This document shows positions 49,087 through 53,614 of a stretch of DNA of 64,000 nucleotides, in pieces; position 1 is the first letter of the stretch; each line of letters starts with the position of its first letter. Below the pieces are notes generated by a model, which saw only the letters and a program-made list of their open reading frames with translations, searched no databases and was not told the origin of the DNA. The translations under genes were made by a program, and so were the position numbers. This DNA is from Phenylobacterium sp. LH3H17. Its GTDB lineage: Bacteria; Pseudomonadota; Alphaproteobacteria; Caulobacterales; Caulobacteraceae. The stretch spans positions 806,001 through 870,000 of the forward strand of contig NZ_CP101283.1 of assembly GCF_024298925.1 (NCBI RefSeq). Direction: 5' to 3'.

Positions 49087-49776
49087 ATGAGTTCCGATCG
49101 TTCGAAAAGCCTGCTGGGCGCCTTCAGGGCGCGACCACGCCTGATGGGGGCCTTCCTCTTCGGCCTCGTGGTGGGTCTCGCTTGCGGCGCGGCGCCCGCC
49201 GGCCCGGACCCGGTCACCGCCGGGGTCATCGGCTGGACGGCCACCTGCCTCAGCTTCATCGCGGCCAGCCTGCACATGATGTGGGGCGCGCCCCCAGCCC
49301 GGATTCGCGCTGTGGCGGCCACCCAGGATCAGGGCCAGGCGGTGATCCTGGGGTTAGTGATCCTCGCCACCGCCGCCAGCATCGGGGTGATCGCCGCCGA
49401 ACTCTCGGCCGCCAGCGCCGAGTCGGGGCTGATGAAGGGGCTGCGGGTGGCCCTGGTGTTCGCCACCGTGGCGGCGTCCTGGTTCCTGGTGCAGATCGTC
49501 TTCGCCCTGCACTACGCCCACGAGTTCTACGCCCCGGACGACAGGGCCGGGGCGGACGCCGGCGGCTTGCTGTTCCCGGGCGGCGAGGCCCCCGACTACT
49601 GGGATTTCCTGCATTTCTCGCTGGTGATCGGCGTGGCGTGCCAGACGGCGGACATCGCTTTCACCTCGAAGGCCCTGCGACGGGTCGGCGGCCTGCATGG
49701 CCTTGTGGCCTTCGTCTTCAACACGGTGGTGGTGGCCCTGACCATCAACCTGCTGGCCGGGCTCTTCGCCCGCTAG
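49087..49776 (+). CDS. DUF1345 family membrane protein
   Basis: Start ATG 49087 gives 229 aa; the frame continues upstream over the rpmI promoter. Membrane helices: LMGAFLFGLVVGLACGAAP, AGVIGWTATCLSFIAASLHMMW, AVILGLVILATAASIGVIAAEL, VALVFATVAASWFLVQIVFALHYAHEFY and VAFVFNTVVVALTINLLAGLF. The HYAHEFY followed by PDYWDFLHFSLVIGVACQTADI is the DUF1345 motif. Function unknown; cytoplasmic membrane. It ends tail to tail with the MFS gene at 49773 (four bases). Confidence 0.88.
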   Translation: MSSDRSKSLLGAFRARPRLMGAFLFGLVVGLACGAAPAGPDPVTAGVIGWTATCLSFIAASLHMMWGAPPARIRAVAATQDQGQAVILGLVILATAASIGVIAAELSAASAESGLMKGLRVALVFATVAASWFLVQIVFALHYAHEFYAPDDRAGADAGGLLFPGGEAPDYWDFLHFSLVIGVACQTADIAFTSKALRRVGGLHGLVAFVFNTVVVALTINLLAGLFAR

Positions 49777-50975
49777 GGACGTGGGACCCGCCTCAGCACC
49801 TGGAAGGCCAGGACCAGGGCCGGCAGGATCAGGATGCAGCCGAGCGCGAAGGGCGCGCCGGGCGAGACCAGCGAGAACAGCTGCCCCGCATAGATCGGCC
49901 CGCCGATCCGGGCGAGCGCGTTGTTGGACATGTTGAGGCCCAGCATCTCGCCCTGCCGGTCGGGCGGGGTGGCGATGGAAATCAGGCCCACAAGGTTCGG
50001 AAAGCAGATCGACTGGCCGAAACCGACGATAGCCAGGCCCAGCACCGCCATCGGCCAGGCGAAGGACGCGAACTGCACGAACATGCCGATGAACATCAGG
50101 GTCAGGCCCGCGATCAGCACCCGGGCCTCGCCGAACCGCCGGACCAGGATCGAGGTGCCCATCCCCTGGGCGAAGGCGCCGATCACCCCGATCACCATGA
50201 AGGCCAGGCCGATCTCGCGCGGCCCCCAGCCGAAGCGAGCCTCGGTCCACAGGCCGTAGGTCGCCTCGATGCCCGCGAAGCCCGAGACGATGACGAACGA
50301 GATGATCATCACCCGCGAGATGATCGGATGGCCGAAGGCCTCGCGCAGGGCCGGCGGGCGGCCGTGGGGGCGGGCCTCGCCCGTGGGCGGCCGGGTCTCC
50401 TTCACGAACAGGAAGACGCCCAGCGCCGAGGCCAGGCCGAAACCCGCCGCGGCGAACAGTGGGATATGGAAGCCGATGGGCCCGAGTTCCGGCTGGGCCA
50501 GCAGGCCGCCCAGGGCCGGGCCGGTCATGAAGCCCAGCGAAAATGCCGAGCCCATCACCCCCATGCGGCCGGCGCGTTGGGCGGGCGGGGTGATGTCGGC
50601 CATGCAGCCCTGCAGGGTCGAGATGTTGCCCGAGAACACCCCGCTGGCGAACCGGGCGAGGAAGGCCAGCCAGATGGTCGGGGCGAAGGCCAGGGCCACG
50701 TAGCAGAGCGCCGCGGTGGCGATGGTGACGATCAGCACCGGCCGACGCCCGATGCGGTCCGACAGCCGTCCCCAGAAGGGCTCGCCCAGGAACTGGCCAA
50801 AGGAGAAGGCCGAGAACAGCAGAGCGACCTGCCACGGCGGCGCGTCCAGGGCCTTGCCGAAGAAGGGCAGCAGCGGGATCACCAGGCCGAAGCCCGCGAT
50901 GTTGAGGAAGGTCACCGACAGCAGGATGAACAGGGCGCGGCGATCCTGCGGCGGCGCCGCCGGGCCCTGGCTCAT
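49773..50975 (-). CDS. MFS transporter, TetA/TCR-like, copy 1
   Basis: Start ATG 50975 (ATGA overlap with the upstream MFS gene); 400 aa with about twelve helices. FGLVIPLLPFFGKALDAPPWQ and FGEPFWGRLSDRIGRRPVLI-type wording, here FLGEPFWGRLSDRIGRRPVL, is the TetA-like motif 1 and helix 2-3 loop; LPFF and GxLxGPALGG-like GFMTGPALGGLLA is motif C of 12-helix drug:H+ antiporters. These traits suggest a drug or small-molecule exporter. It is about 45 % similar by eye to the gene at 50972-52198, a tandem duplicate. Substrate unknown. Confidence 0.9.
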   Translation of the reverse strand: MSQGPAAPPQDRRALFILLSVTFLNIAGFGLVIPLLPFFGKALDAPPWQVALLFSAFSFGQFLGEPFWGRLSDRIGRRPVLIVTIATAALCYVALAFAPTIWLAFLARFASGVFSGNISTLQGCMADITPPAQRAGRMGVMGSAFSLGFMTGPALGGLLAQPELGPIGFHIPLFAAAGFGLASALGVFLFVKETRPPTGEARPHGRPPALREAFGHPIISRVMIISFVIVSGFAGIEATYGLWTEARFGWGPREIGLAFMVIGVIGAFAQGMGTSILVRRFGEARVLIAGLTLMFIGMFVQFASFAWPMAVLGLAIVGFGQSICFPNLVGLISIATPPDRQGEMLGLNMSNNALARIGGPIYAGQLFSLVSPGAPFALGCILILPALVLAFQVLRRVPRP

Positions 50976-52198
50976 TCCTGCCGCTCCGTGCGGGCCGCGG
51001 CGACCCGCCGGCTGGCCGCCAGGGCCAGGAAGATGGCCGGCGCGACCACCAGGGCGCCCATGATGAACGGGCCGTCGATCGCCATCGGGAAGATAAGTCC
51101 CGCGCAGAAGGGGCCGACCACCCGGGCCAGGGCGCCGGTGGCGTTGTTGAGTCCCAGGATCTGTCCCTGGCGGTGCGGGTCGGCGGTTTGAGAGATCATC
51201 GAGCCGACATTGGGCCAGGCGACGGACTGTCCGACGGCGGTGAGGCACATGAGGGCGATCGTGACGCCGCCGCCGGGCGACATGGTCTGGCCGGCGGCCG
51301 AGAGCACGGTGATCCCCATGCCAAGAGCCAGCATCCGGCCCTCCCCGAACCGCTCGGAAAGCCGCCCGGTGACGAACATCTGGGTCACGGCGGCGGAGAC
51401 GCCGACGAAGGCGAAGCAGACCCCGATCTCGCGCGGCCCCCACTCGAACTTCGCCTGGGCCCAGAGGCCGAAGGTGCTCTCGATGCCGGTGAAGGCGAAG
51501 CCCACCAGGAAGGTCAACAGCATCAGCCGACCGATGATCGGGTGGCGGATCACATCGCCGATGGCCGACCAGCGGCTTGGCCGGTGGGTGATGGTCTGCT
51601 CGCGGGTCTTGCTCTCGCGGATGAACACCATGATGCCGATGACGCAGAGCGCCGCCAGGCCCGAGGCCATGAACAGCGGCAGTCGGAAGCCGACGGGACC
51701 CGCGTCCGGGTGGGCGAATATCCCGCCCACCATCGGACCGAAGATCAGCCCCACGTTCCAGGCCGCGCCCTGGTAGGACAGCAGCCGCGTCCGTTTCTCC
51801 GGCGGGGTGACGTCGGCGATATAGCCCTGGATCACCGCCCCGTTGCCGGCCGCCAGCCCGCCCAGCAGCCGGATGGCGAAGGCCGCCCAGATATTGGGTG
51901 CGAAGGCGAGCGCCAGGTAGCAGAGGCAGTTGCCGGTGATGGTCGAGATCAGGAGCGGCTTGCGGCCGTACTTGTCCGACAGCCGGCCCCAGAACGGCTC
52001 GCCGAAGAACGCCCCCACCGAATAGGCCGAGAAGATCAGCGCGATCTGCCAGGGCGGGGCTTCGAACGACTTGGCGTAGAAGGGCAGCAACGGGACGATG
52101 ATCCCGAAGCCCAGCATATTGATGAAGATGACGGCGATGAGAGACGGCGCCGCCATCGAGGACGGCGGCGACGCCCCCTGCGGCGCGGTGTCGGACAT
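50972..52198 (-). CDS. MFS transporter, TetA/TCR-like, copy 2
   Basis: Start ATG 52198 gives 408 aa; an upstream ATG at 52234 is less likely. It has the same motifs as copy 1: GFGIIVPLLPFYAKSFEAPPWQ, FFGEPFWGRLSDKYGRKPLL, GLIFGPMVGGIF (antiporter motif C) and GIESTFGLWAQAKFEWGPREIG. N- and C-terminal halves carry the six-plus-six helix layout. The pair may form a heteromeric or sequentially acting exporter, or just be duplicates. It is downstream of the ArsR/AHSA1 genes, with 70 bases between, so regulation by one of the ArsR proteins is conceivable. Confidence 0.9.
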   Translation of the reverse strand: MSDTAPQGASPPSSMAAPSLIAVIFINMLGFGIIVPLLPFYAKSFEAPPWQIALIFSAYSVGAFFGEPFWGRLSDKYGRKPLLISTITGNCLCYLALAFAPNIWAAFAIRLLGGLAAGNGAVIQGYIADVTPPEKRTRLLSYQGAAWNVGLIFGPMVGGIFAHPDAGPVGFRLPLFMASGLAALCVIGIMVFIRESKTREQTITHRPSRWSAIGDVIRHPIIGRLMLLTFLVGFAFTGIESTFGLWAQAKFEWGPREIGVCFAFVGVSAAVTQMFVTGRLSERFGEGRMLALGMGITVLSAAGQTMSPGGGVTIALMCLTAVGQSVAWPNVGSMISQTADPHRQGQILGLNNATGALARVVGPFCAGLIFPMAIDGPFIMGALVVAPAIFLALAASRRVAAARTERQE

Positions 52199-52268: not shown

Positions 52269-52736
52269 TCAGGCGGTGGCGGGAACCTCGTTCAGCGACT
52301 CGCCGAGCCGGTCGATCAGCCAGTTGGTGCCGTGTTCGCGCTGGCCGACATTGTCGTGACCGTCGAGGAAGGCGCCCATCTCGGTGACCACCATGCGGGT
52401 TCCGGCCCCGTGCTTGTGGAACTCGATGGTGGCGACGGAGACCGAGATCCGCACCTCGTCCATGTCCATGTAGTAGGCGTAGACGATGCGCTCGTTGGGC
52501 ACGATCTCGCGATAGTCGACGGCGAAGGTGTAGAGCGCCCCGCCTTCCGAGTCCCTGCCCTTGCTGTACTCCCGCCCGCCCTCGCGGAAGTCGAACTCGT
52601 AGCCGGCCTCTTCCGCGGCGGGGAACCACAGCGCTTTGAGCTTGGGATCGGCCCAGGCCGCGAAGGTCCGGGCGGGCGTGGCCGTATAGGTGCGTTCCAC
52701 GACGAAGGTGGCGTGGACGACGGAACGTTGGGTCAT
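52269..52736 (-). CDS. AHSA1/SRPBCC-domain protein
   Basis: Start ATG 52736 overlaps the ArsR stop (ATGA), giving 155 aa. VVERTYTATPARTFAAWADPKLKALWF is the AHSA1 START-like opening, then YEFDFREGGREYSKGRDSEGGALYTF, VYAYYMDMDEVRISVSVATIEFHKHGAGTRMVVTEMGAFLDG is the long curved sheet, and LIDRLGESL the final helix. Such proteins bind hydrophobic ligands and are nearly always in a pair with an ArsR-type regulator, as here. The ligand is unknown; the ArsR partner probably controls both. Confidence 0.9.
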   Translation of the reverse strand: MTQRSVVHATFVVERTYTATPARTFAAWADPKLKALWFPAAEEAGYEFDFREGGREYSKGRDSEGGALYTFAVDYREIVPNERIVYAYYMDMDEVRISVSVATIEFHKHGAGTRMVVTEMGAFLDGHDNVGQREHGTNWLIDRLGESLNEVPATA

Positions 52737-53077
52737 GGGTCTCTCCAGGGGTCTGTCGGGGCGGCGAGATGCTCGCCGAGCCGTTCGAGGGTGCGCGCCA
52801 CGCTCGCCTGACGCGCGATGATCCATCGGCCGGTCACGAGCAGTCCAGCCGGATCGATCCAGCAATCCCGCAGGCGGCCGACCTTCGCGGAGCGGACGAG
52901 TCCGCTGGTCTCCAGGACCCGTAGGTGTTGGCCGATCGCCGAAAGCGACATGGCCAGCGGTCGGGCGAGTTCGCTGACCGTGGCCGGTCCGCGGCTCAAC
53001 TGCTCCACCATGGCGCGCCGGACGGGATCGGCCAGGGCCTGGAATGCGAGATCAAGCGAGGTCGCGTGCTGTAGCAT
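52733..53077 (-). CDS. ArsR-family transcription regulator, linked to AHSA1
   Basis: 114 aa from ATG 53077. FQALADPVRRAMVEQLSRGPATVSELARPLAMSLSAIGQHLRVLETSGLVRSAKVGRLRDCWIDP is the winged helix-turn-helix; the recognition helix is MSLSAIGQHLRVLE. The ELCVC-type metal-binding motif of ArsR metal sensors is absent, so the inducer is likely not a metal. A perfect palindrome TACTTAAGTA begins one base upstream of the start codon (53079-53088) and a second ACTTAAGT is at 53118-53125: candidate operators giving autoregulation. ATGA overlap with the SRPBCC gene. Confidence 0.92.
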   Translation of the reverse strand: MLQHATSLDLAFQALADPVRRAMVEQLSRGPATVSELARPLAMSLSAIGQHLRVLETSGLVRSAKVGRLRDCWIDPAGLLVTGRWIIARQASVARTLERLGEHLAAPTDPWRDP

Positions 53078-53128
53078 GTACTTAAGTATCGACCGATCGC
53101 GCGATGGTCAAGTCATGACTTAAGTATT
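53078..53128. promoter_or_regulatory. Two palindromic operator candidates before the ArsR gene
   Basis: TACTTAAGTA at 53079-53088 and ACTTAAGT at 53118-53125, both self-complementary, 39 bases apart centre to centre. The first abuts the start codon at 53077. Binding there would block transcription or translation start. Location and symmetry fit ArsR-type operators; not proven. Confidence 0.55.
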
Positions 53129-53174
53129 TTCTCTGAATGGCTAGGTCGTAGACGGGACGGCCAAGGCGGCGCCT

Positions 53175-53516
53175 TCAGGTCTTGGGTTCTTCGCTCTCGG
53201 CCAGGAAGTCGCCCAGCCGGTCCAGGCGCTTCTCCCAGGATGTGCGGCGCGCATTGATCCACTGCTCGGCCAGTTGCAGCCGGTCCGGCTGGATCGTGCA
53301 GGTGCGCACCCGGCCGACCTTCTCCGACTTCACCAGTCCGCTGGCTTCCAGCACCGCCAGGTGCTGGACCACAGCCGACAGGGTCATGTCCAACGGCTGG
53401 GCCAGTTCGCTGACCGAGGCGGGGCCGCGGCTCAAGCGCTCGATCATGTTGCGCCGGCCCGGATCGGACAGGGCCTGGAACATCAGGTCGAGGGATTGGT
53501 TTCCTTGGTTTAGCAT
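53175..53516 (-). CDS. ArsR-family transcription regulator, second copy
   Basis: 113 aa from ATG 53516, clearly paralogous to the product of 52733-53077: FQALSDPGRRNMIERLSRGPASVSELAQPLDMTLSAVVQHLAVLEASGLVKSEKVGRVRTCTIQPDRL. The recognition helix MTLSAVVQHLAVLE differs slightly from the other copy. Again no metal-binding cysteines. Its stop lies 97 bases before the downstream ArsR start, which contains the palindromes. Just upstream of this start the sequence CTAAAGTATTG resembles half of that palindrome (the tract CCTAAAGTATTG at 53519-53530 lies two bases past the start codon), so both may recognise the same operator. It may be lone or in one unit with the AHSA1-linked copy. Confidence 0.9.
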   Translation of the reverse strand: MLNQGNQSLDLMFQALSDPGRRNMIERLSRGPASVSELAQPLDMTLSAVVQHLAVLEASGLVKSEKVGRVRTCTIQPDRLQLAEQWINARRTSWEKRLDRLGDFLAESEEPKT

Positions 53517-53558
53517 GCCCTAAAGTATTGATTCGCATCGCGGCTGGCAAGCGGCCAA

Positions 53559-53590
53559 GAAAAAGCGGCCGCCCTGGAAGGACGGCCGCT
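53559..53590 (-). terminator. Rho-independent terminator of infC
   Basis: On the minus strand AGCGGCCG (complement of 53583-53590), loop TCCTTCCAGGG, CGGCCGCT (complement of 53564-53571) then TTTTTC form a perfect 8-bp GC stem with U-tract. It lies 24 bases after the infC stop at 53615, so infC is its own transcription unit. Confidence 0.85.
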
Positions 53591-53614
53591 GGTTCTGTCT
53601 CGTGGAGGGCGCGG

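Follow-up and report, generated by a model that had tools for sequence, protein, structure and literature searches.

Metalloregulators of the SmtB/CzrA type within the ArsR family bind operators with a 12-2-12 arrangement. Rv2034 of Mycobacterium tuberculosis is an autorepressed regulator whose footprint covers CCGTAAGT-N4-ACTTACGG, from -30 to +3, and the gene that follows it is of the Polyketide_cyc2 type (PMC3338718). In Frankia, ArsR-AHSA1 gene pairs are common and possibly form operons, and the direct link between the two proteins is described as not elucidated (PMC4531530). Searches of the open-licence PMC literature listed no earlier description of the operator presented below.

The locus studied here lies in a window (the whole 64-kb stretch analysed, positions 806001-870000 on contig 1, from a genome of 4.27 Mb) in which the genes of two ArsR paralogues, an AHSA1 protein and two Tet-like MFS transporters follow one another on the minus strand (Table 1). 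The gene upstream of ArsR2 (54136-53615, minus strand) is presumably infC. The AHSA1 gene and both MFS genes, which the initial annotation had noted downstream of the ArsR pair in proposing that they could be under ArsR control, do lie there and are on the same strand. Both ArsR1 and ArsR2 exceed the Pfam cut-offs for HTH_5 and HTH_20, which places them in the ArsR family; they share 59% identity over 108 residues, and their start codons occupy 53077-53075 and 53516-53514 (-), respectively. Both also pass the broad NCBIfam subfamily model HTH_metalloreg (64.5 and 73.5, cut-off 55). Reading of the translations revealed a single Cys in each protein and no metal-sensor Cys pair in the helix of ArsR-type sites, at what we take to be its position. 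MFS2, like MFS1, falls below the curated Tet cut-offs. The gap between AHSA1 and MFS1 is 70 nt, and no terminator was predicted in it; a terminator-like hairpin separates ArsR2 from the gene upstream, such hairpins numbering two in 4 kb against 1.6 from shuffles.

Table 1. Genes and putative regulatory elements of the ArsR1/ArsR2 locus (window coordinates).
Feature	Position	Strand	Basis and remarks
MFS transporter 2 (MFS2), Tet-like	49773..50975	-	Pfam and NCBIfam; start overlaps MFS1 stop (ATGA)
MFS transporter 1 (MFS1), Tet-like	50972..52198	-	Pfam and NCBIfam; below curated Tet cut-offs
AHSA1 (SRPBCC-type) gene	52269..52736	-	Pfam AHSA1; start overlaps ArsR1 stop (ATGA)
ArsR1, ArsR-family repressor, 114 aa	52733..53077	-	ORF; Pfam HTH_20/HTH_5
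Putative operator O2 of ArsR1, ATACTTAAG-TACATG-CTACAGCAC	53066..53089	-	Second-best window site, matrix 12.1; model R1 E 5.8e-6
Putative operator O1 of ArsR1, ATACTTAAG-TCATGA-CTTGACCAT	53104..53127	-	Best window site, matrix 22.7; right half over -35
-35-like TTGACC of ArsR1	53106..53111	-	TTG begins 34 nt before ATG; position common to relatives
ArsR2, ArsR-family repressor, 113 aa	53175..53516	-	ORF; Pfam HTH_5/HTH_20
Putative operator of ArsR2, ATACTTTAG-GGCATG-CTAAACCAA, across start codon	53505..53528	-	Third window site, matrix 6.9; model R1 E 2.2e-4
-35-like TTGCCA of ArsR2	53545..53550	-	TTG begins 34 nt before ATG; position common to relatives
Terminator-like hairpin and T run	53564..53590	-	Between upstream gene and ArsR2; 12 pairs, 9 G-C

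The initial annotation had interpreted short palindromes in front of both ArsR genes as operators shared by the two regulators. The strings are real and stand at both starts: TACTTAAGTA occupies 53079-53088, 1 base from the ATG of ArsR1, a second copy of ACTTAAGT is found at 53118-53125, and CCTAAAGTATTG occupies 53519-53530, 2 bases from the ATG of ArsR2. In the 64-kb window ACTTAAGT has two matches against 0.11 expected, and at least two were obtained in 1 of 100 shuffles. As an operator, the bare palindrome was rejected, since the genome is not enriched in it (WACTTAAGTW occurs at two places, against four on each strand for the reversed control) and the base following the first nine varies among the 59 start-spanning regions described below (T 32, C 22, G 3, A 2). 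The other genomic place of WACTTAAGTW is between the S11 and RpoA genes.

Comparison of the 5' regions of relatives revealed that the conserved unit is a 24-bp dyad, ATACTTAAG-N6-CTTAAGTAT (9-6-9 bases, with C/G and A/T variants), of which TACTTAAGTA is one half-site; the small palindrome arises because the ATACTTAAG half-site is nearly self-complementary. The earlier reading of an ArsR pair with shared operators is thus partly supported: related, ArsR-operator-like sites do lie at both starts, but the unit is the 9-6-9 dyad and not the small palindrome, and the second ACTTAAGT, formerly assigned as a palindromic operator of ArsR1, belongs as left half to another dyad, the one over the -35 region. 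ArsR1 has a dyad at the start codon and a second one over its -35, and ArsR2 a weaker variant. When the 64 kb were scored with a symmetric matrix built from 32 non-coding dyads of other species (L059 and L097 left out), these three sites ranked at the top with 22.7, 12.1 and 6.9, the fourth score being -7.9. None of 300 second-order Markov windows reached 6.91; among 40 first-order Markov windows of an earlier run the highest score was 10.08, found in one window and above that of the ArsR2 site. In O2 the left half lies over the -10 region, the ATG ends the spacer and the right half, a poor one, constitutes codons 2-4, and the ArsR2 site has the lowest matrix score among the 59 start-spanning sites described below. 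A putative operator appears to span the start codon of each ArsR gene, partly dictating its first codons.

In defining the dyad, 80 loci of named genomes and 29 genus loci were compared side by side over their 5' regions (L093 being a duplicate of L032). Counting identical 5' regions once (114 rows reduced to 107), a dyad score of at least 14/18 was found in 78 of 107 distinct regions, where shuffles expect 0.35; the rows are related, so that the counts are not independent events, and the pattern was written after reading these same regions and knowing the window sites. The dyad begins exactly 12 nt before the start codon in 59 of the 109 regions, both window genes included, a position that makes the start codon the last part of the spacer and codons 2-4 the right half. 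The others comprise 18 regions with an upstream dyad, 3 with a weaker or more distant one and 29 without a dyad. L059 is among the 18 because its start was wrongly assigned; an ATG does lie within its dyad, and this locus was excluded from the TTG-spacing, Shine-Dalgarno (SD) and codon counts. Of the 59 start-spanning loci, 20 have a further dyad 40-65 nt upstream of the start. In loci not used before (ten were taken, of which L165 repeats L062, leaving nine), the dyad was placed exactly over the start codon in 9/9, scoring 14-18/18.

Where another gene leads the unit, the dyad is found just before that gene: in 16/16 loci, picked by eye from the 29 regions lacking a dyad at ArsR and searched over 550-850 nt upstream, it scored 15-18/18. 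These units are L018, L023, L025, L027-L036, L039, L054 and L089, and the leading gene encodes a GST in both loci checked by Pfam. Downstream, AHSA1 is present within 1.3 kb in 85 of 109 loci, within 100 bp in 60 of them, and no AHSA1 match was found downstream in 24/109. MFS genes follow in only three loci, from two other genomes, many loci having only 1.5 kb of flank. Genes of the start-spanning type come mostly from Alphaproteobacteria, and a few scattered loci carry the labels Actinomycetota, Chloroflexota and Myxococcota. Two Mycolicibacterium loci (L125 and L122) carry ACTTAGC-N6-GCTAAGT-like repeats around the ArsR start codon, with the same geometry and another half-site, and three Achromobacter loci (L111, L113 and L115) carry ATAGTTTCC-N6-GGAAACTAT upstream of the ArsR gene, with the same spacing and changed inner bases.

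The part of the dyad that lies in the reading frame left a clear imprint on codon choice. In the 59 start-spanning genes the third position is A/T in 59/59 at codon 2, 0/59 at codon 3 and 58/59 at codon 4, and in 16.6% of codons from codon 13 to the end of the same genes; in the other 49 regions codon 2 ends in A/T in 14/49. The right half might instead reflect conservation of a protein N-terminus (MLN/MLQ), and Leu does occupy position 2 in 58 of the 59 proteins. That Leu, however, is encoded by CTT or CTA in 58/58 cases, whereas farther along these ORFs, where CTG and CTC prevail, those two triplets account for 72 of 849 Leu codons. Both ArsR1 and ArsR2 have CTA as codon 2, a triplet that makes up 2 of 390 Leu codons in 11 other window ORFs. 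Moreover, 16 of the 18 upstream-dyad proteins begin with M/V-F or M/V-Y, not with MLN/MLQ, and the 29 proteins without a dyad have varied beginnings. Given this codon bias and the differing N-termini, a DNA site rather than a protein feature best explains codons 2-4, and we regard the N-terminal explanation as scarcely tenable.

In 56 of the 59 start-spanning regions a TTG has its first base 34-36 nt upstream of the ATG. In Caulobacter a spacing of 34-37 nt between the beginning of the motif and the transcription start holds for 93% of RpoD motifs (PMC4287350), and 375 leaderless mRNAs have been reported (PMC4117421). The agreement between the TTG position and the Caulobacter RpoD spacing argues for transcription starting at the ATG. 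SD-like 4-mers were present in 3/59 start-spanning regions, 1/17 upstream-dyad regions and 14/32 others, the last group comprising regions whose start is neither spanned nor closely preceded by the dyad; a generic consensus promoter scan returned no sigma-70 site. It is therefore likely from the spacing that the transcripts are leaderless, with their 5' ends at the start codon. With transcription probably beginning at the ATG or beside it, the left half of the dyad would cover the -10 region and the right half would form codons 2-4.

An operator-free alternative is that the two genes merely have similar leaderless promoters, of which the ATACTT strings form the -10 boxes. The distance between TTG and ATACTT is indeed the same in the two genes and across most of the start-spanning relatives, but a -10 box leaves the right half unexplained, with its A/T ends at codons 2 and 4 in 59 and 58 of 59 genes, and accounts neither for the full right halves in the 16/16 loci led by another gene nor for the second dyad over the -35 in 20/59; we consider this reading very unlikely. 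An RNA hairpin around the start codon that controls translation seems a still poorer fit and is highly improbable. An inverted DNA repeat can fold as RNA, and the start codon is inside it, yet if transcription starts at the ATG, for which the TTG spacing speaks, the left arm would be outside the mRNA, and it is the half-site letters themselves that are conserved, the two arms often being imperfectly complementary (ATACTAAAG with CTTAACCAA, for instance).

The extent of the putative regulon was examined with a sequence model (R1) made from 54 start regions, leaving out the window, L017 and L020. Of 167 candidates in the 4.27-Mb genome 150 were scored, and at E up to 10 model R1 matched two places, namely the two ArsR start codons, which are sites of one type; within that scope it found no other genomic site and no regulon elsewhere in the genome. 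A degenerate dyad pattern, chosen with the window sites already known, gave nine genomic matches with at most two mismatches versus 13 for the reversed control; at 0-1 mismatch it retrieved only the three window sites, and of the remaining matches two are reverse-strand readings of window sites and four lie elsewhere. In 101 genus genomes, model R1 gave 23 matches at E up to 0.1, comprising 19 ArsR starts already among the genus loci (13 of them training sequences), one other ArsR gene, two GST heads and one site elsewhere. The genome has 12 further ArsR paralogues, among which the best matrix score was 17.8 for L008, which has a related dyad, followed by L010 (3.6) and L006 (0.4), with nine negative; some of the 12 have their own inverted repeats near the start. 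At L008 (about G000:C1:1297037-1297060) the dyad reads TTTAAG-N6-CTTAAT and lies ~57 nt before the matched stretch; this paralogue has AHSA1 as a distant neighbour and is a possible further member of the circuit. At L010 the ArsR ATG again falls inside an inverted repeat, here of another sequence (ACTTC...GAAGT), so that start-spanning sites may be commoner among ArsR genes.

The relationship of the two regulators was approached through two other genomes. G056, of the same genus, possesses both ArsR genes, its ArsR1 being 94% identical, and G080 has a single ArsR gene followed by AHSA1, MFS1 and MFS2, without ArsR1. The G080 ArsR shows 86% identity to ArsR2 and 62% to ArsR1, and in a tree with few columns and many unresolved forks it joins ArsR2 (100/83), and ArsR1 and its G056 copy sit on a long branch. 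Since G080 has ArsR2, AHSA1 and both MFS genes but no ArsR1, it is probable that ArsR2 regulated this operon first and that ArsR1 joined later as a paralogue; a loss of ArsR1 from G080 would be the alternative. The distance from infC to the first ArsR gene is ~1.8 kb in both G056 and G080; in G056 an amidohydrolase gene (L157:289-2118) lies between infC and ArsR2, and it is missing from the window at 53517-53614.

The half-sites of the pair are related but not identical, ArsR2 having TTTAG in both halves and ArsR1 TTAAG on the left. The upstream site of ArsR1 in G056 is TTTAG, and the site of the ArsR2-type gene in G080 is TTAAG. The recognition helix, at the position where we presume it to lie, is of the family type in ArsR2 and changed in ArsR1 (SLSAIGQHLRVLE vs TLSAVVQHLAVLE). 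A helix change as the explanation of TTTAG versus TTAAG was rejected, the same helix being found at both. Both operators could be real and yet insulated, ArsR1 binding only TTAAG and ArsR2 only TTTAG as two separate switches, a reading to which we give somewhat less than an even chance: the differing half-sites and the changed ArsR1 helix speak for it, whereas among relatives the ArsR2 family-type helix occurs at both TTAAG and TTTAG sites, and the G056 and G080 sites cross the supposed boundary. Cross-binding of ArsR1 and ArsR2, as the initial annotation had proposed, is plausible from these comparisons; full cross-binding is disfavoured because the ArsR1 recognition helix differs, and the chances for partial sharing of sites are about balanced.

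From these data we consider it very probable that the dyads are operators for ArsR-family autorepression of leaderless arsR-AHSA1-MFS transcripts, on which view the locus is a well-supported variant of the familiar autorepressed operon of detoxification type. An ArsR-family dimer would bind ATACTTAAG-N6-CTTAAGTAT, block RNA polymerase and so repress its own promoter, until a ligand, probably organic, releases it. Upon release, arsR1, AHSA1 and the two MFS exporter genes would be expressed together as a detoxification or efflux operon, and arsR2 from its own unit; gene order is what points to control of the MFS genes by these ArsR sites. ArsR1 would be a paralogue that diverged and ended up between ArsR2 and AHSA1. 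The likeliest use of such a circuit is release by an organic compound and export of that compound, because Cys pairs are absent and the partners are AHSA1 and Tet-like MFS proteins, with GST among relatives. A bolder extension, which we offer tentatively and think rather doubtful, is a widespread class of coding operators, in which leaderless repressor genes have their first codons dictated by their own operator and MLN/MLQ is a by-product of DNA recognition; here the old copy (TTTAG) and the young copy (TTAAG) would form a two-step relay, either repressor holding both start codons.

What emerges by comparison is a real and conserved candidate operator system, better defined than in the earlier reading and partly different from it. 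A defined operator that heads ArsR-AHSA1 operons and is conserved across families makes the ArsR-AHSA1 link directly testable. It also offers a clean case of a regulatory site that would dictate codons 2-4 of the gene it controls, and the older ArsR2 and younger ArsR1, with related sites, constitute a small natural test of repressor divergence after duplication.

Compared with SmtB/CzrA, the locus shares the winged-helix ArsR fold and a dyad operator over the regulator's own promoter, but it has no metal-binding Cys pairs, another half-site, and MFS instead of metal transporters. The Frankia pairs resemble it in having ArsR in a possible operon with AHSA1 and differ in that the passage describing them gives no operator (PMC4531530). 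The likeness to Rv2034-Rv2035-Rv2036 extends to an ArsR dimer, autorepression and an overlapping operon, all putative and drawn from sequence in the window, and to a dyad near the start codon, the TAAG-N6-CTTA core being exact in the consensus of relatives (PMC3338718). The window sites depart from this Rv2034-type core by one base in O1 and by two bases in O2 and in the ArsR2 site. An SRPBCC-type gene likewise lies directly downstream, AHSA1 overlapping the ArsR1 stop by ATGA. The outer half-site, however, is CCGTAAGT in Rv2034 versus ATACTTAAG in the window, and where the Rv2034 system has one regulator, the locus combines two paralogues and MFS genes with a site of which one half is codons 2-4.
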